From Gammaproteobacteria bacterium (lineage in GTDB: Bacteria > Pseudomonadota > Gammaproteobacteria > Burkholderiales > Burkholderiaceae_D): a stretch of DNA of 64,000 nucleotides. The position numbers and the translations under genes were made by a program. Under the pieces are notes generated by a model that saw nothing but the letters and a program-made list of their open reading frames with translations, was not told the origin of the DNA and did not search any database. The stretch is taken from assembly GCA_903970185.1 (NCBI GenBank), contig CAJCIC010000014.1, positions 1-64,000 of the forward strand, written 5' to 3'. This document shows positions 4,857 to 23,995 of the stretch, in pieces. Position 1 is the first letter of the stretch. Each line of letters opens with the position of its first letter.

Positions 4857-4864
4857 GTTGGCTC

Positions 4865-4886: not shown

Positions 4887-4977
4887 CGCTGAGATAAATT
4901 CGCAAGCCTTTGATTGCGAGATGGAAATCGTGACGATCTGTGCCGCATCTACCTTAACCGCATTGATCTATAAAGTA

Positions 4978-5058: not shown

Positions 5059-5171
5059 ACGAAGGTCTCATATCGACCCAATGCAGACTTTGGGATTTGG
5101 GAGAGCGGACATACAGGACATACAGGCACACTCGCTTGCTTGGAGATTTCCGTTTCCGAATTCTCGTAAGC

Positions 5172-5718: not shown

Positions 5719-5924
5719 ACCTATTCCACCAAATAACGGTTAAAGAGTCATTATCTCCGCAGATTTCGCCATCCGCTACCCAAAATGCGCCGGTACTGTG
5801 CAAATGCGCAAACGGTATCGCCGCCGCGTTCGTCTCTGAACGGCGACTTTGGGGACATCCTCGGACGACCGTTCCTGGCCGGTAGCACGCTGCCAACTAT
5901 TCTGGCTTAACTGATGTCGCCGCG

Positions 5925-6161
5925 CTACCGCGACAGACAAACCACAAAGTGGGGCGAAGATTGGAAGGATTTATCTACGTCGGACAAGTGCCAGTGGTGC
6001 GTCTTATCTTTCCAGCCTGACATCTGGTCGGCTACGTCTGTCAGAAACTTTGAAATTCGGCGAAGTTCATCGGGAGTGGCGTTCAAAGTAATTTCAGCGA
6101 GCTCGGCTGGCTCGCAAGGATCGTTCTGACCTTCAGAAACTTCATAGCCGAAAATCTTCAT
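5925..6161 (-). CDS. Small hypothetical protein, possible immunity protein
   Basis: A 78-residue protein with a strong Shine-Dalgarno (GGAG) before the ATG. The layout is a short N-terminal strand (MKIFGYEV), an EITLNATPDELRRISKFL helix, then a WHLSD segment and a C-terminal SSPHFVV strand. This reminds me of Imm32-type immunity proteins of polymorphic toxin systems, but I hold that loosely. No toxin partner is encoded in the window. Confidence 0.5.
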   Translation of the reverse strand: MKIFGYEVSEGQNDPCEPAELAEITLNATPDELRRISKFLTDVADQMSGWKDKTHHWHLSDVDKSFQSSPHFVVCLSR

Positions 6162-6274
6162 TATTTCTCCGGGCTATTTCGAGAAATGACCGCTTTGGAT
6201 CTGCATCTGCGGTCGACCGGAATTGGCCGATAACACCCTTGACAATCCTGCCTGCCGATCGGAGTGTTGGCCGC

Positions 6275-6712
6275 CTATGTCGGATTCGGTCGCGATCGGA
6301 ACCGGCTAACAAGCCTCGCTGAAACAACATAAGTTATCGTGGCAAGCACGGGAGGGAAAAGCTCCAGTGCCATGCCTTTTAAGGACAGCATATTCTGAAT
6401 CACGAGTCTAGCAACGGGATCGTTACCCGCAGCGCCTAACAGGATTGGCTCCATTGCAGCGTATTGCATGACCGGGCCGATCAGCAAGACCCAAAGCAAG
6501 CAGAACTCGCTGCTGAAAGGATAAAAAATCTTCGCCGCCAGAATCGCGGTAAAGCACGCCATGACTTCCCATTCGGTGCCAGTGGTGTTCCAGGCAATCG
6601 TGTAGTAGGCGACGAGGGAAAGCCCAATGCCGCACCCCATCCGAGCCAGTCTCGGACCATTTTCTCGCGCGCGTTGAAACGTCTCCTTCATGTCCATCGG
6701 TCGCGTCAGCAC
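6275..6712 (-). CDS. Hypothetical multi-pass membrane protein
   Basis: A 145-residue protein with about four hydrophobic segments (near residues 26-42, 49-66, 70-88 and 113-133) and a basic C-terminus. No family is recognised. The start is ambiguous: a GTG at 6712 lies only 2 nt after AGGAG, while ATG codons at 6697 and 6691 are too far from it. It is co-directional with the surrounding TA genes. Confidence 0.5.
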   Translation of the reverse strand: MLTRPMDMKETFQRARENGPRLARMGCGIGLSLVAYYTIAWNTTGTEWEVMACFTAILAAKIFYPFSSEFCLLWVLLIGPVMQYAAMEPILLGAAGNDPVARLVIQNMLSLKGMALELFPPVLATITYVVSARLVSRFRSRPNPT

Positions 6713-6827
6713 GACTCCTTACTTGTCGAGGTCCGTTTTCTTGGGTGTCCGCTTCCCTGTTCGACTTCGACCGACTGCTTCTGGCCGCAACGCGCCGGTT
6801 GCAACATTTCGTTGTCATCTCCTACTA

Positions 6828-7253
6828 CTAGTCCAAAACCCAGGGATTCAGCAGCGCCGCGCCAGAACTCTCAACATCGCGAATGTTGCGAGTGACCAAA
6901 GTGAGTCCGTGGTCGATTGCAGTCGCCGCGATCAAAGTATCGATCACGGGAAGGGGGCGCTCTCCTGAAATTTCGCCCCAGCGGCGAGCTATGGCCGCAT
7001 TTATCGGAAGGATTCTGTCGGCAAAAATCGCTTCGAGGCCGTCCACCCACCGGCCGAGTCTTTCCGATGAGGAAACATCGCTTTGGCGCTTTGACATCAC
7101 GCCTTTTCTTAGCTCGCCGAAAGTAAGTACGCTGAGAAAAAGATCTTCGCTACGGGTTGTTGCCAGAAATGCCAGAACCCTTTCGTCGGGCCGTACTTTT
7201 CGAGTTTCCGAAATTACATTGGTATCGAGGAGATAGCGCGTCGATTCGTTCAA
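6828..7253 (-). CDS. vapC: VapC-type PIN-domain ribonuclease toxin
   Basis: A 141-residue PIN-domain toxin, an Mg-dependent RNase. Acidic residues in the expected places are Asp10 (YLLDTN), Glu47 (FGELRKG), Asp105 (PVIDTLIAATA) and Asp126. It starts with TTG overlapping the antitoxin TGA (TTGA), so translation is coupled. VapC proteins usually cut tRNA or rRNA; the target here is unknown. Confidence 0.9.
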   Translation of the reverse strand: MNESTRYLLDTNVISETRKVRPDERVLAFLATTRSEDLFLSVLTFGELRKGVMSKRQSDVSSSERLGRWVDGLEAIFADRILPINAAIARRWGEISGERPLPVIDTLIAATAIDHGLTLVTRNIRDVESSGAALLNPWVLD

Positions 7254-7495
7254 ATCTCGGCACTCCGCCCTCGATCGTCATCCCGTGCGATCGCGAAATC
7301 TTCCACTTTCGGGCCACCAAGCAGATAAGACTTGAAGTCTGGCTTCAAGGCTGCGAGTGCACGATACTCGTCGATTGAAACCACGACGGCTCGTTCGACG
7401 CCGTGGCGCGTTATGGTCTGCGGTCCCTCAGATTGCGCGCGCTCAATTACCTCACTGAGGTGAGTTTTCGCGTCTTGTACGGGCCAATGTTTCAT
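7250..7495 (-). CDS. Phd/YefM-type antitoxin
   Basis: An 81-residue Phd/YefM protein that begins MKHWPVQDAKTHLSEVIERA, the classic N-terminal dimerising DNA-binding fold, and has a charged C-terminal tail that would bind VapC. I set the start at this ATG because the Phd domain begins there; the longer open frame upstream is A/T-rich promoter DNA. It overlaps vapC by 4 nt. Confidence 0.88.
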   Translation of the reverse strand: MKHWPVQDAKTHLSEVIERAQSEGPQTITRHGVERAVVVSIDEYRALAALKPDFKSYLLGGPKVEDFAIARDDDRGRSAEI

Positions 7496-7513
7496 AGAAA
7501 TCCGGGTCGTTTC

Positions 7514-7528
7514 AACTATTAAAACTAT
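7514..7528 (-). promoter_or_regulatory. Possible operator of the Phd-VapC operon
   Basis: On the minus strand ATAGTT occurs twice with a 9-bp period in A/T-rich DNA about 20-35 bp upstream of the antitoxin ATG. A GATAAT-like -10 box lies just further upstream. Suggestive only. Confidence 0.3.
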
Positions 7529-7603
7529 ATTATCACAAAATGGTCTTTTTTGAAAATTCAGCGTCATTTCAACCAGAATCAACGGATTCGGACTGCAGCG
7601 GGC

Positions 7604-8017
7604 CTAGCCATTGATCATCTCGATCAAATCGATCCGGGGTCCTGCTTTGATATCGCGAATCACGGCGTCGTCGGTCGAAGCCCACTCCACTTCGCTGTAG
7701 AGACTCACGTGAATATGCCGACCAACATCCCTCTCAGCGTTATCTAGCAGTGGTGAAAGACTGAATAGGTCGACATTGCCGACCACTGCGAGATCGATGT
7801 CGCTCTCGCTCGTGTCACTGCTTGTGGCGACGGAGCCAAATATAAATGCCTCCTTCAGCTGCTGGGCTATTGGCGCCAGGGCGTGGGCTAGTGGCTGAAG
7901 CAATGGGCAGCAGCCGCGGAGCAGGAAGCCCCAATGTGCATCGTCGCTCCGATTGAGTTTAAGGTCCGTCCACGGGACTGTAGTGATTGGCAAATTGCCC
8001 CACAACTGCGATGGCAA
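7604..8017 (-). CDS. MNT-type nucleotidyltransferase, probably 5'-truncated
   Basis: The C-terminal two-thirds is a minimal nucleotidyltransferase: FIFGSVA with Gly61-Ser62, then Asp73-x-Asp75 in SDIDLAVVG. Relatives I know carry an N-terminal winged-helix domain of about 80 residues. Here that domain is missing, no ATG exists in the frame (only TTG at 8017), and the first residues overlap the end of the neighbouring gene. This looks like a recombination breakpoint near 7950. No HEPN partner is seen. Type: AMP or NMP transfer to a partner or tRNA in known MNT systems; activity here is doubtful. Confidence 0.6.
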   Translation of the reverse strand: MPSQLWGNLPITTVPWTDLKLNRSDDAHWGFLLRGCCPLLQPLAHALAPIAQQLKEAFIFGSVATSSDTSESDIDLAVVGNVDLFSLSPLLDNAERDVGRHIHVSLYSEVEWASTDDAVIRDIKAGPRIDLIEMING

Positions 8018-10806: not shown

Positions 10807-12153
10807 ATGACCGACAAACGAGACGCCGTGATCGATGGGTCCGAATCCACTCCAAGCCACGATCGTGCAGATGACTTAGGGGTGCGAGGCACAATCGAGT
10901 CGAGGCGTCGCCGATTTCTGCAGTCCGGCGGTGCGCTTTTGGCCCTCGCCTCGGCGGCAGGCAGCAAGGAATTGATGGCGGAAGAGGCCACGCGCGATCT
11001 TCCGCCTGTCGATCCCCTTGTTGCCATACCCGAGTCGATGAAGGCACCCGGTGCCCCGATTGGCACCAAGCCGTACGGCACACCGTCTTCGTTTGAGAAC
11101 CACGTGGTACGTAACGTTGCGGCAAACCAATTGCAGTATTGGTCAAGTACGAGTCGCAGCCCGCTTGCCGAGCTCGACGGCATCATCACACCCAGCGGGC
11201 TTTTTTATGAACGCCACCATGCCGGGGTGCCAACCATCGATCCGGCCCGACATCGGCTGCTGGTCCACGGCTTGGTCAGCAAGCCCCTGGTCTTCTCGGT
11301 GGACGACCTGCGACGCTTTCCTTCGGTGTCGCGCATTCATTTTCTGGAATGCTCCGGAAACCCGGTCTATAAGAGACCGTTTGGCCGGACCGCGTCCGAC
11401 CTGGTTGGACTTGTCAGTTGCGCAGAATGGACCGGCGTTACGCTCAAGACTGTTCTTGACGAGGCGGGCGTATCGCCCCAGGGCAGGTGGGTCATTGCCG
11501 AAGGTGCGGATGGCGCCGGCATGACGCGCAGCATTCCCATCGAAAAATGCCTTGAGGATGCTCTTCTTGTCTATAGCCAGAACGGCGAAAGGCTGCGCCC
11601 GGAGCAAGGTTATCCCCTGCGCCTGTTCCTGCCAGGCTTCGAAGGCAACATGAGCGTGAAATGGCTGCGGCGACTGAAGGTCACCGATGCGCCAGCCTAT
11701 TCGCGTGAAGAGACGGCCAAATACACCGACTTGCTGCCCAGCGGCAAGGCGCGCCAGTTTACGTTTTACATGGAGGCCAAGTCGATCATCACCTCGCCAT
11801 CGGGTGGTCAGCGCATCGCGAGCCCCGGCTTCGTTGAAATTCGCGGAATCGCGTGGAGCGGCCATGGCAAGATCGCCCGTGTCGAGGTTTCGGTTGACGG
11901 CGGCGAGAATTGGTCAGACGCCGCCTTGCAAGAACCGGTGCTTACGCGCGCATTAACGCGCTTTCGTTTCGCGTGGCACTGGCATGGACAACCAGCAATC
12001 ATCCAGAGCCGGGCGATCGACGAGACCGGCTACGTCCAGCCGACGTTCGCGGAGCTCGTCGATGCGCGCGGTGATAACTCCTATTATCACAATAATGCGG
12101 TGCAGCCCTGGCGAATTGACCAAGACGGCGAAGTGAGCAATGCCAATGTGTAA
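10807..12153 (+). CDS. soxC: Sulfane/sulfite dehydrogenase molybdenum subunit SoxC
   Basis: A 448-residue sulfite-oxidase-family molybdoprotein. An RRRRFLQ twin-arginine signal (33-39) predicts Tat export with cofactor. The molybdenum-ligating cysteine is Cys182 in FLECSGN. The C-terminal dimerisation domain includes YTDLLPSGKARQFTF and KSIITSPSGGQ, typical of SoxC rather than SorA. It oxidises sulfane sulfur or sulfite in the periplasm and hands electrons to the downstream cytochrome. No soxXYZAB is visible, so a role in sulfite disposal is inferred from the ssu neighbourhood. The ATG 14 nt upstream overlap with soxD shows tight coupling. Confidence 0.9.
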   Translation: MTDKRDAVIDGSESTPSHDRADDLGVRGTIESRRRRFLQSGGALLALASAAGSKELMAEEATRDLPPVDPLVAIPESMKAPGAPIGTKPYGTPSSFENHVVRNVAANQLQYWSSTSRSPLAELDGIITPSGLFYERHHAGVPTIDPARHRLLVHGLVSKPLVFSVDDLRRFPSVSRIHFLECSGNPVYKRPFGRTASDLVGLVSCAEWTGVTLKTVLDEAGVSPQGRWVIAEGADGAGMTRSIPIEKCLEDALLVYSQNGERLRPEQGYPLRLFLPGFEGNMSVKWLRRLKVTDAPAYSREETAKYTDLLPSGKARQFTFYMEAKSIITSPSGGQRIASPGFVEIRGIAWSGHGKIARVEVSVDGGENWSDAALQEPVLTRALTRFRFAWHWHGQPAIIQSRAIDETGYVQPTFAELVDARGDNSYYHNNAVQPWRIDQDGEVSNANV

Positions 12154-12751
12154 TCAGCGTCGATTGCGCTCGCGCCAGGGTTGGACGCGCCTCCAGGTGC
12201 TGGCCATCGGGCTGGGCGCGATCCTTTGTAGCCCCGCGTTGGCGCAATCGGTGTATCACATCGGACGCGCTGCGACGCCGGCAGAAATCAAGGCCTGGGA
12301 TATCGATGTCGCGCCCGACGGGAAAAACCTGCCGGCGGGCGAGGGTAGTGTGCGGCGCGGGGCCGAGGTCTATCTCGCGAAGTGTGCGGCTTGCCATGGA
12401 AAAAATGGCGAGGGAGGTATCGGTGACCGCCTGGTTGGAGGTGCAGGTACCCTGGCTACGCCCCATCCGGTCAAGACCGTGGGCAGTTACTGGCAGTTCG
12501 CAACGACGCTGTTTGACTACATCCGCAGAGCCATGCCGCTGGATGCCCCGCAGTCGCTGTCAGACGTCGACGTCTATTCTGTTTCCGGCTACGTTCTGTA
12601 TCTTAACGGACTCCTGCCTGAGGACGCAGTCGTTGGCGCCCGCACGCTGACGTCTCTCAAAATGCCTAACCAGGATGGATTCATTGGCGATACACGCCCG
12701 GACGTCAGCGTGCTCGCGTGCACGCACAATTGTCCTCGCAACCCACCTTGA
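12140..12751 (+). CDS. soxD: SoxD-like c-type cytochrome subunit
   Basis: A 203-residue exported monohaem cytochrome c. The signal peptide ends near residue 36 (PALAQ). Haem site CAACH is at 82-86 and the likely axial Met132 lies in RRAMPLD. It overlaps the soxC end by 14 nt, so it is the electron acceptor of the SoxC molybdenum subunit. SoxD of Paracoccus has two haems; only one is present here, as in shorter SoxD or sulfite dehydrogenase cytochromes. The C-terminal TRPDVSVLACTHNCP tail has two further cysteines. Confidence 0.85.
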   Translation: MPMCNQRRLRSRQGWTRLQVLAIGLGAILCSPALAQSVYHIGRAATPAEIKAWDIDVAPDGKNLPAGEGSVRRGAEVYLAKCAACHGKNGEGGIGDRLVGGAGTLATPHPVKTVGSYWQFATTLFDYIRRAMPLDAPQSLSDVDVYSVSGYVLYLNGLLPEDAVVGARTLTSLKMPNQDGFIGDTRPDVSVLACTHNCPRNPP

Positions 12752-12940: not shown

Positions 12941-14014
12941 ATGAATTTTCAGCAACTGCGAGCGGTCCGTGAAACGGCCAGACTGGGCTTTAACCTGACC
13001 GAGGTCGCAAGTGTCCTGCACACCTCTCAGCCTGGCATCAGCCGTCAGATCCGCGAGTTGGAAAACGAGCTTGGCATCGAGATTTTTGTTCGCGCCGGCA
13101 AGCGCCTGACGTGCCTGACTCCACCTGGAGAAGCGATCCTGCCGCTCGTTGAGCAACTTATCCAGGGCGCGGAAAACCTCCGCCGTGCGGGCGATGACTT
13201 CAATGCGGTCGACACCGGGCCGCTGTCGATTGCTGCCACGCATTCCCAGGCGCGCTACGCCCTGCCGATGGTGGTGCGCGATTTTCGCAAGATTTACCCC
13301 GGGGTCACGCTGAGCATGCATCAGGGCTCGCCCAAGCAGGTCGCGGACATGCTGCATTCCGGCGAGGCCGATATCGGCGTTGCCACTGAAGCACTTGCCC
13401 ATTACCCGCAGCTCATCGCACTGCCTTGCTACCGCTGGACGCATAGCATCATCGTGCCGCCTGGCCATGCCTTGCTCGAACGGACTGCTCCGGTCACGCT
13501 TTCTGACCTTGCGCGGTTTCCGATCATCACCTACGAGCCTGGATACACCGGGCGCGCCCACATCGACGAAGCGTTCCATCGCGAGGGTCTAGAGCCGAAC
13601 ATTGTGCTAACAGCGATGGACGCTGACGTTATCAAGACGTATGTCGAGCTTGAGATGGGCGTCGGCATTGTCGCTTCCATGGCCTTCGATGCCGAACGCG
13701 ATCGCACCCTGCGCGCGCTCGATGCGCGTCATCTCTTCGCCGTCAACGTCACGCGCCTTGCCATCCGCCGCGGGGCCTGGTTGCGCCGTTACGTCTACGA
13801 TTTCATCGAATCGTTTGCACCGACCCTGACCCGCGAGGTGGTTAAGGCCGCCCTTGCAGAATCCCAGGGGGGCAATGAAGGGGAGGCTGCCGGCGCGTCC
13901 TCGCCCGAGCTCAACTCCGAAGCGCGGCCACGCGCGCGAGCCAAGTTGCCCCGGTCGTTATCGGGCAAATCCTCTGCACTGACGGGCGAAAAGGCACCTG
14001 CCAGAACGCGCTAG
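12941..14014 (+). CDS. CysB/SsuR-type LysR regulator
   Basis: A 357-residue LysR-type regulator closely resembling CysB: the N-terminal helix-turn-helix contains LHTSQPGISRQIRELENELG, and the effector domain has THSQARYALP, MHQGSPKQVADM and TAMDADVIKTYVELEMGVG. CysB-group proteins sense O-acetylserine, sulfate or APS and control sulfur starvation genes; in Burkholderia SsuR controls ssu genes. The last 60 residues form a charged low-complexity tail absent from E. coli CysB. The start is the ATG of MNFQQLRAV; the longer frame upstream is not conserved. It sits between soxCD and the ssu genes, which it probably regulates. Confidence 0.88.
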   Translation: MNFQQLRAVRETARLGFNLTEVASVLHTSQPGISRQIRELENELGIEIFVRAGKRLTCLTPPGEAILPLVEQLIQGAENLRRAGDDFNAVDTGPLSIAATHSQARYALPMVVRDFRKIYPGVTLSMHQGSPKQVADMLHSGEADIGVATEALAHYPQLIALPCYRWTHSIIVPPGHALLERTAPVTLSDLARFPIITYEPGYTGRAHIDEAFHREGLEPNIVLTAMDADVIKTYVELEMGVGIVASMAFDAERDRTLRALDARHLFAVNVTRLAIRRGAWLRRYVYDFIESFAPTLTREVVKAALAESQGGNEGEAAGASSPELNSEARPRARAKLPRSLSGKSSALTGEKAPARTR

Positions 14015-14050: not shown

Positions 14051-15154
14051 CTAGGCCACTCTTAGCGCGCCCGAGCTTGGCTTTTCGAGGCGCCGTTCGG
14101 CCACCATCTGGCGCGTGCGTGGAATCAGTTCCCGGCCATAATCGATGGCGTCTTCAAGGGGATCAAAGCCGCGGATGAGAAAAGTCGTCACGCCCAGATC
14201 GTAATAGTCAAGGAGTGCCTCGGCGACCTGCTCGGGCGTTCCTACAAGGGCTGTGGTGTTGGCGCGCCCCCCCGTTTCCTTGGCGATCTCGGTCCAAAGC
14301 CGTCGATCGAGGCGCGAGCCCTTTTCGGCTGCAGCCAGAAGTCGTCTTGCACCTTCACTTTGCTGCGGGCCGCCACGACTGAACCCCTGCGCCACGCGCA
14401 GGCGCCGCGTCTCGGCCAGGATATGTTCGGCGCGCGCCCATGCGGCCTTCTCGGTTGCCGCAAGGACCGGGCGGAAAGACACTGAAAAGCGCACCGTGCG
14501 AGCGTGCCTTGCCGCCTCGGCGCGCACCCGGCGGGTCAATTCGCGAGCCTGATCGAGCGACTCTCCCCAAAGCGCATAGACGTCTGCATGCTTGCCCGCA
14601 ACCGGAATTGCCGCGTCCGAGGCACCAGCAAAATACACCGGCACGTGCGGCTTTTGCAGCGGCTTGACTTCGGAATACCCGCCCTGAAAGCGAAAGTATC
14701 TGCCCTCATGGTCAAACGGTGTGTCCTCGGTCCAGATGCGTTTTACGATGTCGAGGTATTCGTCGGTGCGTGCATAGCGCTCATCGTGTGCGAGGTAGTC
14801 GCCGTCGCGCCGCTGTTCCTCATCTGATCCCCCCGAAATGAAATGCACGCCCAGGCGGCCGCCGCTGAACTGGTCCAGGGTGGCAAATTGGCGTGCCGCA
14901 AGCGTCGGTGCCGTAAATCCTGGCCGGTGCGCGAGCATGAAGTGGATGCGCTCGGTGACACTTGCTGCGTAGGCGATGGTCAGGGTCGCACTCGGGCCTG
15001 TGGAGTGGTGCGGAACAAGAACACGGTCAAAGCCCGCAATTTCGTGCGCCTGTGCGAAGGCACGCACATAGTCCTTGTCGATGGCCGCCCCGCTTGCCGG
15101 ATGCGTCTCGGAGACCTTCTGGGTCTGGATCATGCCAATGAATTCGATGCTCAT
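14051..15154 (-). CDS. SsuD-like FMNH2-dependent monooxygenase
   Basis: A 367-residue bacterial-luciferase-family enzyme. Motifs include APTLAARQFATLDQFSGGRLG, FISGGSDEEQRRDGD and the YARTDEYLDIVKRIW segment shared with alkanesulfonate monooxygenases. It differs from the canonical SsuD at 20968 (no [11 protein letters not shown] start), so the substrate is probably a different sulfonate. It needs FMNH2, presumably from the SsuE homologue in the cluster. The start is the ATG of MSIEFIGM; the 61 codons before it are not conserved. It is divergent from an ssuA gene across 219 bp. Confidence 0.8.
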   Translation of the reverse strand: MSIEFIGMIQTQKVSETHPASGAAIDKDYVRAFAQAHEIAGFDRVLVPHHSTGPSATLTIAYAASVTERIHFMLAHRPGFTAPTLAARQFATLDQFSGGRLGVHFISGGSDEEQRRDGDYLAHDERYARTDEYLDIVKRIWTEDTPFDHEGRYFRFQGGYSEVKPLQKPHVPVYFAGASDAAIPVAGKHADVYALWGESLDQARELTRRVRAEAARHARTVRFSVSFRPVLAATEKAAWARAEHILAETRRLRVAQGFSRGGPQQSEGARRLLAAAEKGSRLDRRLWTEIAKETGGRANTTALVGTPEQVAEALLDYYDLGVTTFLIRGFDPLEDAIDYGRELIPRTRQMVAERRLEKPSSGALRVA

Positions 15155-15373
15155 ATCCGATCCTGAAGTCGAGTGCCATGGCGCCTGTAGCCAAGGCGAG
15201 GCTACACCGCGCCACGTGGCGCAGACAAATGACAAATGCGACCTTGCATATGCGCGAAATTGATATCGGCTCGGGCTACTGCTGCAGGCTTCGCATATCG
15301 AAAGTCGAAACGATTCGTTTGTGCGGGTGCGTCTCACGGCTATGCTCGTTTTCCGTCCCGATCACAGAAGAAC

Positions 15374-16354
15374 ATGAACAGCGCTCACTTCAATTCCCTA
15401 TCGCCCGGCCGCCGTCGCCTGCTGCAGTGGGCCGCCCTAGCGGCCTTCAGTCCATGGCTTGGCGCGCGCGCGGACGAGCACCAGGTGTTTCGCATCGGCT
15501 ACCAGAAGGGGGGTGGCCTGCTGGGGCTGCTGAAGGCGCAAGGAGAGCTCGAAAGAAGTCTCGGACCCAAGGGCTGGTCAGTGTCCTGGTACGAGTTTCC
15601 GGCGGGTCCGCAACTGCTCGAGGCGTTAAATGCGGGCAGCATCGATTTTGGCTACACCGGCGCGCCGCCACCGGTGTTTGCGCAGGCTGCCGAGAAGAAC
15701 CTCGTCTACGTCGCAGCCGAACCGGGGGCTCCTTCGATCGAAGCGATCATCGTCAAGCCGGATTCGCCACTCACGCGGGTGACCGATCTCAAGGGAAAGC
15801 GGGTCGCGGTACAGAAAGGCTCGAGCGCCAATTTCCTGCTGCTCGCGGCGCTCGAAGATGCCGGCATGGCTTTTTCCGACATCCAGCCGATCTATCTTCA
15901 GCCAGCCGATGCGCGCGCCGCGTTTGAATCCGATCGCGTCGATGCCTGGACCATCTGGGATCCCTACCTCGCCGCAGCACAGGTTGCGCTCAAGGTGCGC
16001 GTGCTTGCCGACTATACCCATCTGACCCAGACCAACGCCTTCTACGAATCGTCGCGGGATTTCGCACAGCACGCACCGATCGTCTTGAACACCACGTTAT
16101 CCGAACTCGCCAAGGCGGGTACCTGGGCCAATGCAAATCCGCACGCTGTAGCGGAGCTGCTCGCACCCCAGGTCGGACTTCCGGTTGACGTCGTTGAGAT
16201 CTGGCAAAAGCGAACGCACTACGGTGCCCAGCCGGTCGACTCCACGATCATCGCAACCCAGCAGAAGGTTGCGGACGCGTTCTTCGATCAGAAGCTGATT
16301 CCAAAGCGGGTCAAGGTTGCAGACGCGGTGTGGACCTGGCAGCGCGCCTCGTAG
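15374..16354 (+). CDS. ssuA: Aliphatic-sulfonate-type ABC substrate-binding protein (copy 1)
   Basis: A 326-residue periplasmic binding protein of the SsuA/nitrate/taurine family. An RRRLLQ-containing signal ends near ARADE (residue 34). Then [42 protein letters not shown] and DARAAFESDRVDAWTIWDPYLAAA follow the family pattern. It resembles the second ssuA at 22208 throughout but differs enough to bind another ligand. No permease or ATPase lies on its strand, so it probably shares SsuBC of the opposing operon. The ATG was chosen directly before the signal peptide. Confidence 0.88.
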   Translation: MNSAHFNSLSPGRRRLLQWAALAAFSPWLGARADEHQVFRIGYQKGGGLLGLLKAQGELERSLGPKGWSVSWYEFPAGPQLLEALNAGSIDFGYTGAPPPVFAQAAEKNLVYVAAEPGAPSIEAIIVKPDSPLTRVTDLKGKRVAVQKGSSANFLLLAALEDAGMAFSDIQPIYLQPADARAAFESDRVDAWTIWDPYLAAAQVALKVRVLADYTHLTQTNAFYESSRDFAQHAPIVLNTTLSELAKAGTWANANPHAVAELLAPQVGLPVDVVEIWQKRTHYGAQPVDSTIIATQQKVADAFFDQKLIPKRVKVADAVWTWQRAS

Positions 16355-16448: not shown

Positions 16449-17348
16449 TCACTTTGCCGGCAATCCTGAATCCTCCCCGCGCGGAAAATTCAGGACGCCT
16501 TGCAGCAATTCCCTCTCGTAGCGGGCGAAGGCGATCGTGCCGCGCTCTCGCGGTCGCGGCAGATCGATGGCAAGATCCACCGTGATGCGACCTCCCTCCA
16601 TGAGGACAACGCGATCGGCAAGTGCCACTGCCTCGTTGACGTCATGGGTGACAAGCACAGTGGTGAAGCCGCGATCGAGCCACACCTGTTCGATCAATTG
16701 CTGCATTTCAATGCGGGTTAGCGCATCAAGGGCGCCAAGCGGCTCGTCGAGCAAGAGAAGCCTTGGCGAATGCACCAGCGCACGCGCCAGCGCCACCCGT
16801 TGCCTCTGGCCGCCTGACAATACCCCGGGCCAGTCATGCGCACGGTCAAGCAGATCGACTGCCTTTAGCGCAGCCTGCGCCAGATCGCGCTGAGTCTTGG
16901 GAAGTGCCAGTGCCACATTGTCGATGACGGTCTGCCAGGGGAGCAGGCGGGCATCCTGGAACATGATGCGTGTGTCTGCATCAATTCCCTTTTTGGCTTC
17001 GCCATTGAGTCGAATCGGCGCTTGCCTGCGCGCGTCGCTCGCATCCGGTGCGTCCAGACCCGTGATCAGACGCAGCAACGTGCTTTTGCCGCAACCACTG
17101 CGTCCAAGAATCGCGACAAATTCGCCGGGATTGATGTCAAGATCGATGTCAAACAGCACACGGCGAGATCCAAAGGACTTGTTCAAGCCGCCAATCGAGA
17201 CGCGACTGCCTCGCGAGGCAGCGGCGACGGCGCGGTTCATCGGAATGTCACCCATTGATTCATCGTTTAGCGCCAGATCGGGATGGCGATCGAGCAATGC
17301 TTGCGGATTACGGGTCATGGCAACGCCCTGCAAAAAACGTGGATTCAT
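16449..17348 (-). CDS. ssuB: Sulfonate ABC transporter ATPase SsuB
   Basis: A 299-residue ABC ATPase: Walker [10 protein letters not shown] (82-90), Q-loop near 131, signature LSGGQ (177-181), Walker B ending LLLLDEP (197-203) and the H-loop in VTHDVNEA. It closely matches SsuB of the nitrate/sulfonate/taurine importer class. The N-terminal 36 residues may be overextended, as a second ATG (residue 37) starts nearer to homology. It is the last gene of the minus-strand operon, separated from its permease gene by two monooxygenase genes, which is unusual. Confidence 0.92.
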
Positions 17349-17351
17349 GCG

Positions 17352-18812
17352 CTAGGTTTTGACTGCTTCAGCGCTTGCGGCACGCTCGGATTGCGAGATG
17401 TCGGCGCGCCCACTGCGAGCGCCTGTGCAAGTGCCTTCGGTTCGCGTGGGAGCGGGGACCAAGAAGGAGCGGCCAATGTGGGATTCAGGCAAACGATTCG
17501 AGCGACCGAAAAGTTGCGCGCGCAGACTTTGACATTGCGAGCGCATCGGGTAGCGCCCACGACGGCGCAGCTCCGGCACGATGAAATCGACGACGTCTTC
17601 GAAGGTGCCGGGATTGATGGCATAGGCCAGATTGAAGCCGTCAACGCCAGTGAACTCCATCCACGATTCCAAATCGTCAGCGATCTTTTCAGGGGTGCCG
17701 ACAAAAACCGGCCCTCGCCCTCCCAAGCCAATAAACTGCAGGACTTCGCCGACGGTCCATTGCCGCTTGGGATCGGCCTTGGTGAAGGCGGCAAGCGCAC
17801 TTCGGCCGGCATCATTTTCGACATACTCGACGACCTGGTCGAGCTGGTAGTTGCCGAAATCGATGCCGGTCCAGCCGGAGAGCAAGGTCAGCGCGGCCGC
17901 GGCATCGACGTACTTGGCGTAGTCCTTGAACTTTCTTGCTGCCCTTTCCTCGCTCGTGTCGGTGACGATTAACGCCTGCGTGTAGACCATCACCTCATCG
18001 GGCGCGCGGCCTTGCAGTCGTGCAGCCCGACGAATGCCATCGACGCTGCGCTTGACGATCTCTTGCGTCGGCCCGCTGATGAAGACGCATTCGGCATGGC
18101 GTCCAGCAAACTGCTGTCCGCGGTCGGACGCCCCCGCCTGATAGAGCACGGGCGTGCGTTGCGGCGACGGTTCCGATAAATGGATGCCGGGCACGACGAA
18201 GTGCTCTCCGCGGTGCTCGATGGGGTGGACTTTTCTGGGATCGGTAAAGACGCCGGTTTTCTTGTTGGCAAGAACGGCATCATCCTCCCAGCTCATTTCC
18301 CAGAGTTTGTAGAGCACTTCCATATACTCTTCGGCGTAATCGTAGCGGGCGTCGTGGGCCAGCTGCCGTTGCAAGCCGAGGTTCTTCGCGGCGCTGTTGA
18401 GATAGCCCGTGACGATGTTCCAGCCGATGCGCCCGCCGGTTAAATGATCCAGCGTTGACATCCGTCTTGCAAACGGTACGGGGTGCTCATAGGTCAGGGT
18501 AAACGTCACTGCGAAACCGAGATGGCGGGTGACTGCAGCCATCGCCGCGACGAGAAGCATGGGATCATTGACGGGAACCTGGACTGCCCCTTGCAAGGCG
18601 TCATCGGCCGACCCTTTGTAGACGTCGTAGACCCCCATCACGTCGGCAAAGAACAGGGCGTCAAAGCCGCCGCGCTCGAGGGTCTGGGCAAGATCGGTCC
18701 AAAGACCGAGTTCCTTATAGCGTGAAGACTGGTCGTCCGGATGGCGCCATAGACCAGGCGACTGGTGCCCGACGGTATTCATGACGAAGGCGTTAAAGCG
18801 GATCGGCTTCAT
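17352..18812 (-). CDS. DszA/NtaA-family FMNH2-dependent monooxygenase
   Basis: A 486-residue flavin monooxygenase of the NtaA/SnaA/DszA group. The start MKPIRFNAFVMNTVGHQSPGLWR, then TLERGGFDALFFADV, FARRMSTLDHLTGGRIGWNIVT and DARYDYAEEYMEVLYKLWE match DszA-type sulfone monooxygenases by eye. DszA opens the ring of dibenzothiophene sulfone; other members act on nitrilotriacetate or dimethylsulfone. The last 50 residues are a divergent Arg/Ser-rich tail. It sits 3 bp before ssuB and 43 bp after the DszC-like gene, so all are co-transcribed. FMNH2 would come from SsuE. Confidence 0.85.
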   Translation of the reverse strand: MKPIRFNAFVMNTVGHQSPGLWRHPDDQSSRYKELGLWTDLAQTLERGGFDALFFADVMGVYDVYKGSADDALQGAVQVPVNDPMLLVAAMAAVTRHLGFAVTFTLTYEHPVPFARRMSTLDHLTGGRIGWNIVTGYLNSAAKNLGLQRQLAHDARYDYAEEYMEVLYKLWEMSWEDDAVLANKKTGVFTDPRKVHPIEHRGEHFVVPGIHLSEPSPQRTPVLYQAGASDRGQQFAGRHAECVFISGPTQEIVKRSVDGIRRAARLQGRAPDEVMVYTQALIVTDTSEERAARKFKDYAKYVDAAAALTLLSGWTGIDFGNYQLDQVVEYVENDAGRSALAAFTKADPKRQWTVGEVLQFIGLGGRGPVFVGTPEKIADDLESWMEFTGVDGFNLAYAINPGTFEDVVDFIVPELRRRGRYPMRSQCQSLRAQLFGRSNRLPESHIGRSFLVPAPTRTEGTCTGARSGRADISQSERAASAEAVKT

Positions 18813-18855
18813 GGAGTTCTAACGCAAGGCTGGCTTGAGCATGGCCGGCTGCAAG

Positions 18856-20109
18856 TCAGGAATACGGTGTGGCTTCGGGCAGACGACCCGTCAGGGCGTA
18901 GCGGCCGATGTCCCTGATCTTGTAGTCGACCGGATCATGCAGCGTGTGCACGCGCACGTTGCGCCAGAAACGGTCAAAACCATACTTGGCGCGGGTTGAC
19001 CCGGCGCCATTGATCTCAAAGAGCTGGGACGCCGTTTCAAGCCCGGCCCGGTGTGCCAGAACTTTGGCCTCGGCCACCGCGATGGCGACTTCACCGCGCT
19101 CGGCCTTCGTGACCCTCTCGCCGTTGGCGAGCGCAGCGTCGAGTTGCGCGGCGGCGATGTCGGCAAGCACGGTGGCTGAGCGGATCATCAGCCTGAGATT
19201 GCCGTAGCGATGTTCGATGAACGGATCCTGATGGGCCGCTGCAACTTCGGAGAGGAGCCAGGGCTTCGCCTGCGAGACGGTATAGCGCCGCGACTCCTCG
19301 AGGGCACCCTCGGCGATCCCCAGGTACAGGTTGGTCATCACGGATTGAGCGATTTGCGAGCGCAGGGTGCTGTAGGGCGTTGGCGTCGTTTTCGGCGGCT
19401 GCAGCACCTCGATCGCATCGAGCTGGACGCGCTCGAACGTGACGGTGCCGCTATCGGTTTGACGTTGCCCGAATGCGTCCCAGTCAGATACGACCGTGAC
19501 CCCCGTGCGGCTGGTTGGCACAACCGCGATGAGCGCTGTCGAGGTGACCGGATGCCAGGCTGAGATCGTGAGCATGTCCGAGCCGACCGATCCAGACGAC
19601 CAGCTTTTCGCGCCATCAAGCACGAAGCCCTTCGATGTGTCGGTCGCGATCAGTCGCTTATCCAGAGGGTTCAGGGCGTTGCCCCAGAAGACATTTCGTG
19701 CAATCGTCTGCTTGAGAAAACGCTCTTGCTGGATCGAGTCGCCGTAGAGCAGCAGCCCGGCAACCTGCAGATGGTGAAATCCCAGGAGGTGGGCGAGGGC
19801 GCTGTCGGCGGCCGCGATCTTGCGCACGACCTTTAGGATCGTCGACCACGATGCGCCATCGCCGCCAAACGGCTTGGGCACCGACAGACGCAACAGCCCG
19901 CTGTTTTTGAGCAACTCGCGCTCGGGCGCGGCATGCCCGCCCTGGCGATCGCGCTCGATCGCGGTCTTTGCGAGTTGCAAAGCCACGCTCTCGGCGACGC
20001 GTAGCGCTTCCTCCTCGGCGAGGCTTCGGTCGGCCGGGATGACGCGCGAGCCTGTGCCAGGCGAGCTACGAAGCGGTGCGGCGGAATCGAACTTCAATGC
20101 AGCAGTCAT
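18856..20109 (-). CDS. DszC/SfnB-family flavin monooxygenase (acyl-CoA-dehydrogenase fold)
   Basis: A 417-residue protein of the acyl-CoA dehydrogenase fold with strong resemblance to DszC: AIERDRQGGHAAPERELL, VVRKIAAADSALAHLLG, GQRQTDSGTVTFERV, and the C-terminal KYGFDRFWRNVRVHTLHDP. DszC oxidises thiophene sulfur to the sulfone using FMNH2 and O2; SfnB proteins act in dimethylsulfone use. It lies between ssuC and the DszA-like gene. The ATG at 20109 (MTAALKFD) is preferred; an alternative start lies 6 codons upstream. No DszB-like desulfinase is seen. Confidence 0.85.
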   Translation of the reverse strand: MTAALKFDSAAPLRSSPGTGSRVIPADRSLAEEEALRVAESVALQLAKTAIERDRQGGHAAPERELLKNSGLLRLSVPKPFGGDGASWSTILKVVRKIAAADSALAHLLGFHHLQVAGLLLYGDSIQQERFLKQTIARNVFWGNALNPLDKRLIATDTSKGFVLDGAKSWSSGSVGSDMLTISAWHPVTSTALIAVVPTSRTGVTVVSDWDAFGQRQTDSGTVTFERVQLDAIEVLQPPKTTPTPYSTLRSQIAQSVMTNLYLGIAEGALEESRRYTVSQAKPWLLSEVAAAHQDPFIEHRYGNLRLMIRSATVLADIAAAQLDAALANGERVTKAERGEVAIAVAEAKVLAHRAGLETASQLFEINGAGSTRAKYGFDRFWRNVRVHTLHDPVDYKIRDIGRYALTGRLPEATPYS

Positions 20110-20134
20110 GAGGGTTTCACCGGTCAAAAGCGTC

Positions 20135-20965
20135 TTAAGGTCGCTGGTACGCCGGATTCCAGCGAAGCAGAACCCGCTCTAATCCCTTGGCCGAGACGTC
20201 GGCCAGTTTGCCAAGCGCGGCATAAAGCAAGATGCCAAGGACGACGACGTCGGTTTGCAGAAATTCGCGCGCATTCATGGTCATGTAGCCGATCCCTGAT
20301 TGCGCCGAGATGGTCTCGGTCACGATCAGGATCACCCAGACCAGGCCGAGCGCGAAGCGCAGGCCGACAAGAATCGAAGGCAATGCTCCCGGCAAGATGA
20401 TGTTGGTTGCCATCTGCACCCTGGTCAGTCCGTAGGCACGCCCCATCTCGATGAGTTGGGGATCGACAGAGCGGATGCCATGAAAGGTGTTGATGTACAT
20501 CGGAAAGAACACGCCCACCGAGAGCAGCGTCAGCTTGGCACCTTCCTCGATTCCGAACCACAGAATCACGAGCGGCACGAGTGCGAGCGCCGGAATGTTG
20601 CGCACCATCTGGATGGTGGTATCAAACAGGGTCTCGGCCGTGCGGCTTGCGCCCGTCAGAAGACCAAACAGCAAGCCGATACCGCCGCCAAGCGCAAGGC
20701 CTGACAGTGCTCTTAGCGCACTGACGCGCACGTTGGTCCAGAGCTCGCCGGTGCTGCTTAGGGTCAGCGCGGCCTTGAATACCGCGAATGGCGCAGGCAG
20801 GATGCGTGATGACAGCAGATGCGCGTCGGACGACCACTGCCAGAGAACGAGGATGGCAAAGGGCACGACCCAGGGCGCGAGCATGCTCCAGATGGCCCGC
20901 CCGGAGTTGCGGCGCAAAGGCGTCCGTGGCTTGAGCAATTCGCTCGCGGCAGGCGCGATGGCCAT
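20135..20965 (-). CDS. ssuC: Sulfonate ABC transporter permease SsuC
   Basis: A 276-residue inner-membrane permease with about six transmembrane helices and the family signature EMGRAYGLTRVQMATNIILPGALP near residues 165-190 that contacts the ATPase. The start is the ATG 3 bp after the ssuD stop, which suits coupling; the open frame extending 100 codons upstream lies inside ssuD and is not homologous. It works with SsuB and one or both SsuA proteins. Confidence 0.92.
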   Translation of the reverse strand: MAIAPAASELLKPRTPLRRNSGRAIWSMLAPWVVPFAILVLWQWSSDAHLLSSRILPAPFAVFKAALTLSSTGELWTNVRVSALRALSGLALGGGIGLLFGLLTGASRTAETLFDTTIQMVRNIPALALVPLVILWFGIEEGAKLTLLSVGVFFPMYINTFHGIRSVDPQLIEMGRAYGLTRVQMATNIILPGALPSILVGLRFALGLVWVILIVTETISAQSGIGYMTMNAREFLQTDVVVLGILLYAALGKLADVSAKGLERVLLRWNPAYQRP

Positions 20966-20967
20966 TT

Positions 20968-22155
20968 CTAGCTCGCAGCCAGTTCTTTGGATTGGCCGCC
21001 CGTGGCCTTCGGTACGATGGTGTTGGCCATGACCTCGCCAAAGGGTCCGCTTAGGACATTGCCGGCGGCACTGAACTTGCCCGTTTGCTTCAAGAGCGGG
21101 AAGACCAGTTCGGCAACGCGGTAGGCTTCTTCGAGATGGGGATAGCCTGAGAAGATGAAGGTCTCGATGCCAAGATCCGCATACTCGTGGATGCGCTCGA
21201 CGATGGTCTGCGGACTGCCTACAAGGGCGGTTCCTGCACCGCCTCGGACAAGGCCTACGCCGGCCCAAAGATTCGGGCTGACTTCCAGATGTTCGCGGCC
21301 TCGGCCGCGCTTTCCGCCGTGCAGGGCCGCCATGCGGCGCTGTCCCTCGGAATCCATCTTCGAGAAGGCCTGCTGTGCCTTGGCAATGGTTGCGTCGTCG
21401 AGGTGGCTGATCAACTCATCGGCGGCCTGCCATGCCTTTTCATCGCTGTCCCTGACGATGACATGCAGGCGAATGCCGAACTTGAGCGTGCGCCCTTGTG
21501 CTGCCGCGCGCTTTTTCACGTCTGCAATCTTTTCTGCGACGGCTGCAGGCGGCTCGCCCCAGGTCAGGTAGACGTCGAGCTGTTCTGCAGCGAGCTGATG
21601 CGCCGGCCCCGATGATCCGCCGATGTAGAGCGGCGGATAGGGCTTCTGGACCGGTGGAAAGAGCGATTTTCCGCCCTTTGAACGCAAGTACTGGCCTTCG
21701 AAATGGGTTTCGCCCGCATCGTGACTGGTGCGCAGGATATCGCGCCAGATGTGCAGGAATTCCTCGGTGATCTTGTAGCGCTCGGTGTGATCGGCAAAAA
21801 CGCCGTCGCCTTCCAGTTCGTTGGCGTCGCCCCCGGTCACGACGTTGATAAGCAGTCGCCCCGCGGAAAGACGATCGAATGTCGCGGCCATGCGCGCGGC
21901 CAATGCTGGCGATGTGATGCCAGGTCGAATCGCGACGAGGAACTTCAGCCGACGGGTGACGCCGATCAGGCTCGAGGCGACAACCCAGGCGTCTTCGCAA
22001 CTTCGTCCGGTGGGCAAGAGCACGCCTTCATAGCCTAGGGTGTCGGCGGCAACAGCAATTTGCCGGAAGTAGTCGTAGTCGGCCACGCGTGCGCCATGCG
22101 ATGTGCCGAGATAGCGCGAATCACCGTGCGTTGGGATGAACCAGAAGACTTCCAT
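20968..22155 (-). CDS. ssuD: Alkanesulfonate monooxygenase SsuD
   Basis: A 395-residue FMNH2-dependent enzyme that cleaves alkanesulfonates to aldehyde and sulfite. It is very close to E. coli Ssu[16 protein letters not shown] start, [16 protein letters not shown] (with the conserved Cys), [32 protein letters not shown], and [20 protein letters not shown]. The ATG follows ssuA by 52 bp. The product sulfite would feed assimilation or the SoxCD enzyme encoded to the left. Confidence 0.95.
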
Positions 22156-22207
22156 GAGGACTCCGAAAGACGTGAAGAGGATGCGCCTTTGCGCTACGCA
22201 AGAACGT

Positions 22208-23209
22208 TCAAGGTTTTGCCCAGAGGGTTGCGCTAGCCACCCTGATCGGTTGCGGGATGAGCTTCAAATCAAAAAAAGCATCTGCGATGTGCTGCTGGTC
22301 CGAGATCACTGCGACATTGATTGGCGTGACGCCATAGGCGTAGCGGGTGACGGCCAGCTCGAGCGTCTGCGCGTCAAGGCCGGTTTCAGCGGACAAGAAC
22401 CTGGCGACCTCCTGCGGGTTTTGTTTTCCCCACGCATCAACGGCGTCAAGCTCCTCGCTGACCGCCTTGATCACCTCCGGATTCGCCGCGGCGTAGGCGC
22501 GCGACGCAAGATAGAACTGCCGGTTGCTCACGGCGTCCTGTCCGTCAGCCACAACGCGCGCGTGCAGCTGCTGCTGCGCTGCCGCGAGAAACGGATCCCA
22601 GATCGCCCAGGCATCGACACTGCCCCGTTCAAAGGCGGCTCTGGCGTCTGCAGGTGCGAGGTAGACGGGGGTAATGTCGCCGTACTGCAATCCCGCCTTG
22701 GCGATGAGTTGAAGCAGCAGATAGTGGACGTTCGATCCCTTGTTCAGGGCAACCCGCTTGCCCTTGAGCTCGGCCACCGTGTGGATCGGCGAGTCCGCTC
22801 GAACGACGATGGCTTCGGAGTGGGGGGAAGGGGGTTCATTGCCGACGTAGACAATGTCGGCACCCGCGGCTTGCGCAAAAATCGGCGGTGCTTCGCCGAC
22901 CGTGCCAAAGTCGATCGAGCCGACGTTCAATCCTTCGAGCAGCTGCGGGCCGGCGGGGAATTCAGTCCACTTCACGCTAATGCCCTTGGCCGCGAGACGT
23001 CTGTCGAGCGTGCCGCGTGCCTTGAGAATGATCAGCGTGCCGTACTTCTGGTAACCGATGCGAAGCTCCTTCGCAGCAGCGCCATCAGCGCTTGCCGCAG
23101 CGTTGGCGCTTGCGCCAGATTGCATCAGCATCGCAGCAGCGACAAGCAAGGCGCAGGTGCCAAAGACAAACGATCCGACTCGATGGGGCAGAACGAGGAA
23201 ATGATTCAT
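22208..23209 (-). CDS. ssuA: Aliphatic sulfonate substrate-binding protein (copy 2)
   Basis: A 333-residue periplasmic binding protein with a signal peptide ending near residue 38 (SANAAA). [53 protein letters not shown] and [15 protein letters not shown] mark it as SsuA. It lies inside the ssu operon between ssuE and ssuD and is the likely main partner of SsuBC. The ATG is the only start that keeps the signal peptide. Confidence 0.93.
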
Positions 23210-23300
23210 CGTGGTGTCAGGGTTGGATTTGGAGCGCGGATCTCCAAGTACGTCGGCAGCTGCTTCATGACGGGACTAAGGCGCTGCCGTGGCGGCCTGG

Positions 23301-23906
23301 CTATGCGCTACATCGAGCCTGAAGAGCGATTGTGGCGAGCGTGCTCGTCGCATTGAGCCGGCGTGCGTCGACGTATTCGAGAAGCTCGGTCAGGTGTTCG
23401 ACGGAATCTTCGATGCGCACGCGCACCTCGGCGTCGATGTCCTCATGGCGCAGCGCCGCCTCGCCAACGCGGATTTGGGTTTCGTGCGCGAAGACGCCAG
23501 AGAGGATGTGGCGTGCGCCAAGGGCGGAGAGAACCGGCTTTAGCGCGTATTCGACTGCGAGAAAGTGCGCAAGCGTGCCCCCTGTCGCCACAGGCAGCAC
23601 GATTTTTCCATCGAGGGCGCGTTCGGGAAGCAGGTCAAGTAGCGTCTTTAGGCTACCGGAGAAAGAAGCCTTGTAGACCGGGGTGGCAATTACCAAGGCG
23701 TCGGCGTCTGCGACTTTCGCTGCCAGGCGCTGCGCCGCCGGGCCATCCCAACGGCCAGCGATCGGATCGTCTGCAGGTACGTCGGCAATCGAAAGTGCGC
23801 CGGTGCGAATGCCGTTGGCCGCAAGCTGCTCGCCAATGGCGTCGGCCAACGCAGACGATCTGGAGAATTTTGCCGGACTGCCGAACACGAGAAGCGCGGA
23901 GGACAT
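23301..23906 (-). CDS. ssuE: NAD(P)H-dependent FMN reductase SsuE
   Basis: A 201-residue flavodoxin-fold reductase supplying FMNH2 to the monooxygenases. TPVYKASFSGSLKTLLDLLP followed by ERALDGKIVLPVATGGTLAH is nearly the E. coli SsuE sequence. It is the first gene of the minus-strand operon, 91 bp before ssuA, and the only flavin reductase in the cluster, so it probably serves the SsuD, SsuD-like, DszA-like and DszC-like enzymes. The start is the second ATG, matching family N-termini. Confidence 0.93.
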   Translation of the reverse strand: MSSALLVFGSPAKFSRSSALADAIGEQLAANGIRTGALSIADVPADDPIAGRWDGPAAQRLAAKVADADALVIATPVYKASFSGSLKTLLDLLPERALDGKIVLPVATGGTLAHFLAVEYALKPVLSALGARHILSGVFAHETQIRVGEAALRHEDIDAEVRVRIEDSVEHLTELLEYVDARRLNATSTLATIALQARCSA

Positions 23907-23966
23907 AGATGCCTTGCAAACGAGAAAGGCAAGCATACGCACGCTTCATATAACCGCAAAATGAAT

Positions 23967-23995
23967 AATCTAACTTTTGTTATATGTTTTTGTAA
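23967..23995 (-). promoter_or_regulatory. Putative ssu operon promoter with dyad operator
   Basis: On the minus strand TTACAA and TAGATT are separated by 17 bp, 60 bp upstream of ssuE, in an A/T-rich patch. A TAAC-(4)-GTTA dyad occupies 23971-23982, overlapping the -10 edge and spacer. A LysR/CysB-type protein could bind here, but that is inference. Confidence 0.4.

Follow-up and report, generated by a model that had tools for sequence, protein, structure and literature searches.

What do two flavin-dependent monooxygenases do in the middle of an alkanesulfonate operon? The question is raised by a stretch of 64,000 nucleotides (nt), here called the window, from contig CAJCIC010000014.1 of a Burkholderiales genome (GCA_903970185.1). 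On its minus strand, positions 23942–16449 hold seven consecutive intact genes, with 0 inner stops in the seven frames, in the order ssuE-ssuA-ssuD-ssuC-(DszC-like)-(DszA-like)-ssuB; this is the order already read in a first-pass annotation of the same DNA. That annotation likened the two inserted enzymes to the first steps of dibenzothiophene desulfurization and proposed a thiophene or sulfone route that bypasses the DszB desulfinase. The reading tentatively put forward here, which falls slightly short of an even chance, is that the operon would be a sulfur-starvation system for aliphatic organosulfur compounds, with a two-enzyme cassette placed between ssuC and ssuB.

All five genes of ssuEADCB are present in the single run, with SsuB below its own family cut-off (Table 1); in the profile scan of SsuC the query carried 3 extra N-terminal residues. 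There are 2 nt between ssuD and ssuC, 25 nt (or 7, depending on the start codon) between ssuC and the DszC-like gene, 43 nt between the two inserted genes, and 3 nt between the DszA-like gene and ssuB. Because the gaps around the inserted genes are short, the operon is likely a single transcription unit. A scan for sigma-70 promoters and terminators gave sites no commoner than in shuffled sequences, and a tRNA was the sole match in an Rfam scan. The two inserted genes do encode flavin enzymes, as first proposed: by fold, the DszC-like protein is a group D monooxygenase (acyl-CoA dehydrogenase fold) and the DszA-like protein a group C monooxygenase (luciferase-like TIM barrel).

The DszC-like protein finds its best PDB match in MsuC (6u76, 357 bits), ahead of DszC (306 bits) and TdsC (252 bits), with identities of 46%, 43% and 38%, respectively. 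It misses the cut-off of the NCBIfam DszC family (NF043015, 343 bits against 850) and that of SfnB (TIGR04022, 303 bits against 430.9) and lies outside the SfnB clade. With an AlphaFold 2 (AF2) model (mean predicted local distance difference test score 83.6), the first-ranked Foldseek match is MsuC. A tree of 61 sequences shows supported groups for SfnB (11 rows, 99/98), DszC/TdsC (3 rows, 100/99) and MsuC (13 rows, 96/94), and a further clade that contains the window protein (24 rows, 100/99; 26 rows and 97/95 when two more distant ones are included), here called the cassette clade. Eight rows fall outside all four groups, 3 of them with very long branches, and the residue counts below leave these eight out. 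In the best tree the window protein is outside the 3-row DszC/TdsC clade, though a joint clade with it is not rejected by the test given further down.

We take His92, Tyr96, Asn129, Phe161, Ser163, Trp205, Ser215, Phe250 and His388 to be active-site residues of DszC. A loop of the form FWGN-(A/T)-LNP, in which DszC positions 134–138 are deleted, is found in 24 of 24 cassette-clade rows and 13 of 13 MsuC-clade rows, and the same rows all replace DszC Tyr96 by Phe and DszC Phe250 by Arg. None of the three DszC/TdsC rows has the Phe, the loop or the Arg; they display a sequence of the SSENNSHV type at 131–138 and Phe or Trp at 250, where the window protein shows LNP, a five-residue deletion and Arg256. 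The Arg also occurs in at least one of the 11 SfnB rows. The charge of Arg256, if this residue contacts the pocket, would suit an anionic sulfinate. Other positions (H92, N129, S163, W205, S215 and H391) are identical in DszC, MsuC and the cassette clade except for a Gln at H92 in one MsuC and, being common to all three groups, do not discriminate between them; His391 of DszC is reported as an active-site residue (PMC11134501). In sequence the support for the name MsuC is stronger than that for DszC. A gene of MsuC/DszC type, 52% identical to MsuC and outside the tree groups, is also found on a Synechococcus elongatus plasmid (L196, positions 5929–7149), where it adjoins sulfonate ATP-binding cassette (ABC) transporter genes.

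The DszA-like protein is closest to DmoA, the dimethyl sulfide monooxygenase of Hyphomicrobium sulfonivorans. PDB matches are DmoA (6ak1, 528 bits), LadA (478), HcbA1 (354), RcaE (286) and BdsA/DszA (243), and identities are 51% to DmoA, 34% to DszA/BdsA and 32% to CmoJ. Foldseek with the AF2 model (mean score 82.0) ranks DmoA first, followed by LadA, HcbA1 and RcaE, with BdsA at rank 12. In a tree of 31 rows, where references sit on long branches and DmoA itself is flagged as one, the DszA-like protein, its cassette relatives and DmoA form a group of 19 rows (97/94) with no other reference inside; a separate nine-row group (99/97) includes the enzymes neighboring SfnB pairs, and LadA, HcbA1 and BdsA are apart as well. 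Seventeen of the 20 binding residues that PMC9259527 lists for DmoA are identical in the DszA-like protein. Where BdsA has Ser139, Leu230 and His316, the DszA-like protein has Gly136, Ala228 and Trp314; BdsA Val248 is replaced by Ser and Pro58 also differs, while H20, F56, V137, H156, R159, Y160 and F246, for which mutation likewise showed a role in BdsA (PMC5819316), align with identical residues. Gln80 and Val372 of BdsA, like the listed Gln345 and Val371, lie where the alignment is shifted or gapped and too uncertain for a comparison, and Phe12 is outside it. In BdsA, S139A and L230A abolish activity and H316F removes more than 90% of it (PMC5819316). For this protein as well, the sequence supports the name DmoA more strongly than DszA. 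The identities first assigned to the two enzymes are thus replaced by MsuC-like and DmoA-like, and the active-site comparison that the first-pass annotation called for goes against DszA at several BdsA contacts, whereas the compared DszC residues that are shared by all groups leave the DszC part undecided.

The two genes also tend to occur together. Among 148 related genomes, this one included, with thresholds of at least 56% for the DszC-like and at least 55% for the DmoA-like protein that were chosen after the matches were seen, the DszC-like gene is present in 15, the DmoA-like gene in 15 and both in 13 (Fisher p = 7e-15); by genus, both are found in 9 of 98 (p = 3.5e-11), neither value being corrected for kinship. 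Co-occurrence exceeds chance. Left out of the counts are five genomes (G030, G056, G079, G083, G112) whose best DszC-like match, 44–50%, falls elsewhere in the tree, and ten genomes with a DmoA-family match below 55%. One of the 15 DszC-like genes, that of G005, has an in-frame stop; in G008 and G050, stops reported within the DmoA-like frame had suggested decay, a reading that was dropped because they appear to coincide with where the frame ends naturally. A search of 369 genomes of the class at 1e-60 gave three matches, from the own genome, G282 (MsuC clade) and G317 (unplaced), and all 335 of 335 matching plasmid records show less than 60% identity.

The genome itself (3.7 Mb, 133 contigs, 93% complete) carries a second copy on contig C118, with the order ssuA, ssuD, ssuC, DszC-like, metN, metI, metQ, DmoA-like, ssuB, metQ, followed by SoxC-type and cytochrome genes, CysB and others; its ssuA is incomplete where C118 was split for analysis. 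The DszC-like proteins of the two copies are 72% and the DmoA-like proteins 82% identical, and in gene content the window copy looks like the cassette without its importer. Nonsynonymous and synonymous divergence (dN and dS) between the copies are 0.21 and 1.5 for the DszC-like gene and 0.16 and 3.4 (saturated) for the DszA-like gene; both enzymes are apparently under purifying selection. The MetN, MetI and MetQ proteins of the second copy all miss their methionine-family cut-offs (290 against 500, 165 against 212 and 172 against 374). The MetQ within the cassette scores 154 against MetQ/NlpA (cut-off 229), unlike the second MetQ-like protein after ssuB (L037, 10348–11157), which scores 257.

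A third DmoA-like gene, 62% identical, is located at C96:8620–9969 (L039), and no sulfur gene was recognized beside it by eye. Tetranucleotide correlations with three window pieces are 0.937–0.943 for C118 and 0.934–0.967 for C96, while 20 tested loci of other genomes give 0.857 or less with C118. For the SufS-like gene of C118, no near duplicate turned up elsewhere in the genome. The tetranucleotide profile and this single gene make it unlikely that the C118 copy stems from contamination, although DNA of a close relative is still conceivable. No third strong gene of the DszC/MsuC type was found in the genome at its 93% completeness. SfnG above its cut-off (TIGR04021, 383 bits) is likewise absent from it, the best score being 159 bits; 5 of the 148 genomes exceed the cut-off.

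A survey of named genomes, covering the best 80 of 559 relatives, shows how the cassette is built elsewhere; genes were called by BLAST against the proteins of the window and C118, and some loci end at contig ends. In 48 of the 80 loci the DszC-like gene is immediately followed by metN-I-Q. The DmoA-like gene is in the same run as the DszC-like gene in 51, following metNIQ in 36, metQ in 13 and the DszC-like gene directly in 2. SsuD follows the DszC-like gene directly in six loci, two of which were scanned (587 and 589 bits, cut-off 518), and the P. aeruginosa run msuE-ssuD-msuC pairs the same two genes. By presence, 60 loci have SsuD at 50% or better, 51 the DmoA-like protein at 55% or better, and 67 MetN or MetQ at 50% or better, with none of the three in 6. 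In 12 loci the block is flanked, all on the same strand, by ssuD upstream and ssuB downstream (eight Achromobacter, two Derxia, one Bordetella and one metagenome-assembled genome, MAG). The exact form seen in the window, with ssuC, DszC-like, DmoA-like and ssuB and without metNIQ, occurs in 0 of the 80. Splitting of ssuC and ssuB by the cassette is thus recurrent and not unique to this genome. By title all 80 loci but one are betaproteobacterial. Locus L170, titled as a Chitinophaga pinensis MAG, shows a Malikia-type arrangement, a 58% DszC-like gene followed by SsuD, and is probably a mis-binned betaproteobacterial contig. A different module recurs in Achromobacter, Noviherbaspirillum and Pantoea (L117, L119, L135, L155, L160, L162, L188, L199), where a DmoA-family enzyme (51–53% where measured) and a MetQ-like gene accompany two SfnB-like genes whose proteins are ~33% identical to the window protein; in the tree, the SfnB-like proteins of L117, L188 and L199 belong to the SfnB clade.

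The pathway that we favor for the operon can be set out as follows. SsuABC would import sulfonates, and the MetNIQ-type importer of the second copy, acting in trans, may bring in another organosulfur compound. SsuE would supply reduced flavin mononucleotide (FMNH2) to all three oxygenases, as was first suggested; this is plausible, since in vitro the enzymes of the dimethyl sulfide (DMS) route of Acinetobacter baylyi share a single reductase, MsuE (PMC13352529). The DmoA-like enzyme would oxygenate the carbon adjoining sulfur and break the C–S bond of an alkyl sulfide, sulfoxide or sulfone, a sulfone being the most useful substrate here as it would yield a sulfinate. The MsuC-like enzyme would convert the sulfinate to a sulfonate, from which SsuD would release sulfite to be used in making cysteine. 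With such a route a DszB desulfinase would not be needed. The logic of the proposed bypass is therefore reasonable, and it is already published; the genome gave no match with one DszB query, in a search without a positive control. If the DszC-like enzyme oxidizes sulfinate, it must act after the C–S cleaving enzyme and not before, and the DmoA-like enzyme would be the obvious cutter where no SfnG exceeds its cut-off. The order DmoA-like first, MsuC-like second is tentatively favored over one that begins with sulfide oxidation. In Pseudomonas and Acinetobacter, dimethyl sulfone (DMSO2) is converted to methanesulfinate by an SfnG-type enzyme, to methanesulfonate by MsuC and to sulfite by SsuD/MsuD, with one flavin reductase (PMC13352529, PMC8234197).

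Several observations weigh against this pathway or against the names on which it leans. DmoA is known for acting on a sulfide, which would give a thiol and not a sulfinate. The cassette clade is separate from the MsuC clade in the tree, with 42–53% identity between them, and genuine MsuC-like proteins also exist in Burkholderiales (Paraburkholderia, 70% to Pf0-1 MsuC). When the window clade was forced to group with DszC or with MsuC, an approximately unbiased (AU) test rejected neither (p = 0.25 and 0.086, respectively), and the lower p falls on the MsuC grouping; the drop in log-likelihood was 14.8 with DszC and 13.2 with MsuC. VIA-align gives a tie for the DszC-like model (DszC Z 50.2, MsuC Z 50.0), and for the DszA-like model LadA, HcbA1 and RcaE, in that order, score at least as high as DmoA, while BdsA appears only from rank 8 on. 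Three of the listed DmoA binding residues differ (S137G, G231D, L367R). SsuD at 50% or better was not found in 20 of the 80 loci, some of them cut by contig ends. Finally, A. baylyi MsuC turns over methanesulfinate slowly, and a strain lacking it grows without a significant defect (PMC13352529), which makes the main substrate of MsuC itself doubtful.

The alternative that survives best keeps the order of the first-pass annotation with aliphatic substrates: the DszC-like enzyme would make a sulfoxide and then a sulfone from an alkyl sulfide, the DmoA-like enzyme would cut the sulfone, the sulfinate would be oxidized non-enzymatically and SsuD would finish. This is unlikely but carries appreciable weight. 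The group D enzymes Dms1–3 do so for DMS in A. baylyi, MsuC weakly converts dimethyl sulfoxide to DMSO2, and FMNH2 alone can oxidize sulfinate (PMC13352529). The missing SfnG and the missing third DszC/MsuC-type gene would also fit two enzymes covering all steps. A DszC grouping, which the AU test does not reject, would suit this order too. What argues for the MsuC-like step instead is the Arg in place of DszC Phe250, together with the MsuC-type loop, in every cassette and MsuC-clade member.

The place of the importer genes suggests another explanation, the salvage of amino-acid-type thioethers, sulfoxides or sulfones (S-alkylcysteine, methionine derivatives) by CmoO/CmoJ-like enzymes with import by MetNIQ. 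The metNIQ genes follow the DszC-like gene in most of the surveyed loci and stand between both enzymes in the second copy, and CmoJ, of the same superfamily, cleaves S-alkylcysteine sulfoxides (PMC10863075). It is distinctly unlikely, given that the transporter proteins of the second copy fall below the methionine-family cut-offs and that CmoJ is a distant match.

About as unlikely, or very slightly more so, is that the two enzymes are passengers, co-regulated by sulfur starvation and acting on separate substrates with no common pathway. Sulfur-starvation loci often combine unrelated scavengers, the DmoA-like gene at 55% or better is missing from 29 of the 80 MsuC-like loci (some cut by contig ends), and the gene on C96 stands apart from recognized sulfur genes. 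Against this, of the 15 genomes and 11 genera with a DszC-like gene, 13 and 9, respectively, also have the DmoA-like one, and the two are repeatedly adjacent. A 4S-like thiophene route, in which the DszC-like enzyme makes the sulfone, the DszA-like enzyme opens the ring and SsuD finishes, is highly improbable: the folds are shared, identities to the Dsz enzymes are 34–43%, DszC is level with MsuC in VIA-align and such enzymes followed by Ssu were suggested for dibenzothiophene (Ahmad 2023, as cited in PMC11852219), but several BdsA contacts, DszC 134–138 and Phe250 are not kept, the DszC cut-off is far off, and the neighbors of the cassette in other Burkholderiales are again genes for alkanesulfonate use, so that thiophene substrates, as first proposed, are unsupported.

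The preferred pathway, from sulfone over sulfinate and sulfonate to sulfite, has relatives among known systems. The Pseudomonas msuEDC/sfnG route likewise combines an FMN reductase, an MsuC-type group D enzyme and an SsuD/MsuD-type enzyme in one unit, and a methionine-type ABC permease is annotated near the P. aeruginosa msu locus; here a DmoA-family enzyme stands for SfnG, ssuABC is complete and the MsuC-like protein belongs to a separate clade. DMS assimilation in A. baylyi (Dms1–3, MsuD/SfnG, MsuC, SsuD, MsuE) shares the enzyme classes, the one reductase and the sulfate-starvation logic (PMC13352529); likened by description, it cleaves the C–S bond of the sulfone with an SfnG-type enzyme, where this ssu operon has a DmoA type. 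DmoA is in the same clade as the DszA-like protein, which differs in its setting, an operon for sulfonate use. The Rhodoferax sulfolane ssu operon, again likened by description, has a terminal dszA homolog and no dszB, with a path from sulfone to sulfinate to sulfonate and on through sulfonate use proposed; sulfinate oxidation is there left to chemistry (PMC6395730), whereas here an MsuC-like gene adjoins. The 4S dszABC system resembles the operon in its group D and group C sulfur monooxygenases with a separate reductase, and differs in the DszA and DszC positions noted above, in tree group and in DszB, for which the one query gave no match here. Searches of openly licensed PMC papers gave no prior report of an ssu operon that combines a member of the DszC-like clade with metNIQ and a DmoA-like gene. 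A bolder proposal, which we regard as rather unlikely taken as a whole, is that the clade would be a new family ranking with MsuC and DszC, a dedicated oxygenase for the sulfinates released by a DmoA-type sulfone C–S monooxygenase, Burkholderiales-wide and with its own MetNIQ-type importer, the window holding a sulfone-to-sulfite path on one transcript.

The genes beyond ssuB form a sulfur-assimilation neighborhood (Table 1). The CysB-family regulator may control the operon, and sulfite that SsuD releases might be consumed by the SoxC-type dehydrogenase. The luciferase-like monooxygenase has its best PDB match in MsuD (7jv3, 207.5 bits); as SfnG or SsuD it was rejected, since it misses both family cut-offs. 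Together with the second SsuA-like protein it makes up a divergent pair, with C118 counterparts of 88% and 78% (L037, near 1–1908). The SoxC-type and cytochrome c genes stand beside a CysB-type gene in both copies (window 10807–12751; L037 8440–10351), and the two SoxC-type proteins are 79% identical. Farther away, positions 4252–8017 hold a series of small genes on the minus strand that look like toxin-antitoxin pairs, by motif presumably Doc-like, DUF433-type, VapC/Phd-like and nucleotidyltransferase-like; its GC content is 0.53–0.54, against ~0.6 across most of the window, and it is a few kb from a tRNA-Met (2144–2220).

Table 1. Genes of the sulfur operon and its neighborhood in the window (scores in bits)
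Gene or product	Coordinates	Strand	Family evidence and remarks
ssuE, NAD(P)H:FMN reductase	23301–23942	-	TIGR03567 204.3, cut-off 164; alternative ATG start possible at 23907
ssuA, aliphatic sulfonate-binding protein	22208–23209	-	PRK11553 322.6, cut-off 299; TIGR01728 248, cut-off 163.5
ssuD, FMNH2-dependent alkanesulfonate monooxygenase	20968–22155	-	TIGR03565 613.9, cut-off 518.2
ssuC, sulfonate ABC permease	20135–20965	-	PRK11365 347.1, cut-off 347; ATG at 20965
DszC-like (better: MsuC-like) group D flavin monooxygenase, own clade	18856–20127 (or start 20109)	-	
DszA-like (better: DmoA-like) group C flavin monooxygenase	17352–18812	-	TIGR03860 (NtaA/DmoA) 543.7, cut-off 279.7
ssuB, sulfonate ABC ATP-binding protein	16449–17348	-	best family PRK11247, 331, below cut-off 395
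Second ssuA-like binding protein, convergent with the operon	15380–16354	+	PRK11553 317.5, cut-off 299
Divergent SsuD/SfnG-type luciferase-like monooxygenase	14051–15157	-	TIGR03565 233, cut-off 518; TIGR04021 153, cut-off 383
CysB-family LysR regulator, possible sulfur-starvation activator	12941–14014	+	PRK12684 464, cut-off 402
Cytochrome c adjoining the SoxC-type gene	12140–12751	+	PF13442 and PF00034 above cut-off
SoxC-type sulfite dehydrogenase, possible sulfite sink	10807–12153	+	TIGR04555 604.6, cut-off 420

The operon is a real and recurrent variation on known organosulfur scavenging operons, and it is unlikely, from the residues compared, to desulfurize thiophenes. If the favored pathway is true, it would name an enzyme that could feed sulfinates to SsuD in Burkholderiales genomes without a detected SfnG or true MsuC. 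A DszC/DszA annotation would then mislead searches for fuel-desulfurizing bacteria, and the operon, probably one transcript, would allow tests of which group C or group D sulfur monooxygenase acts first and on what substrates.

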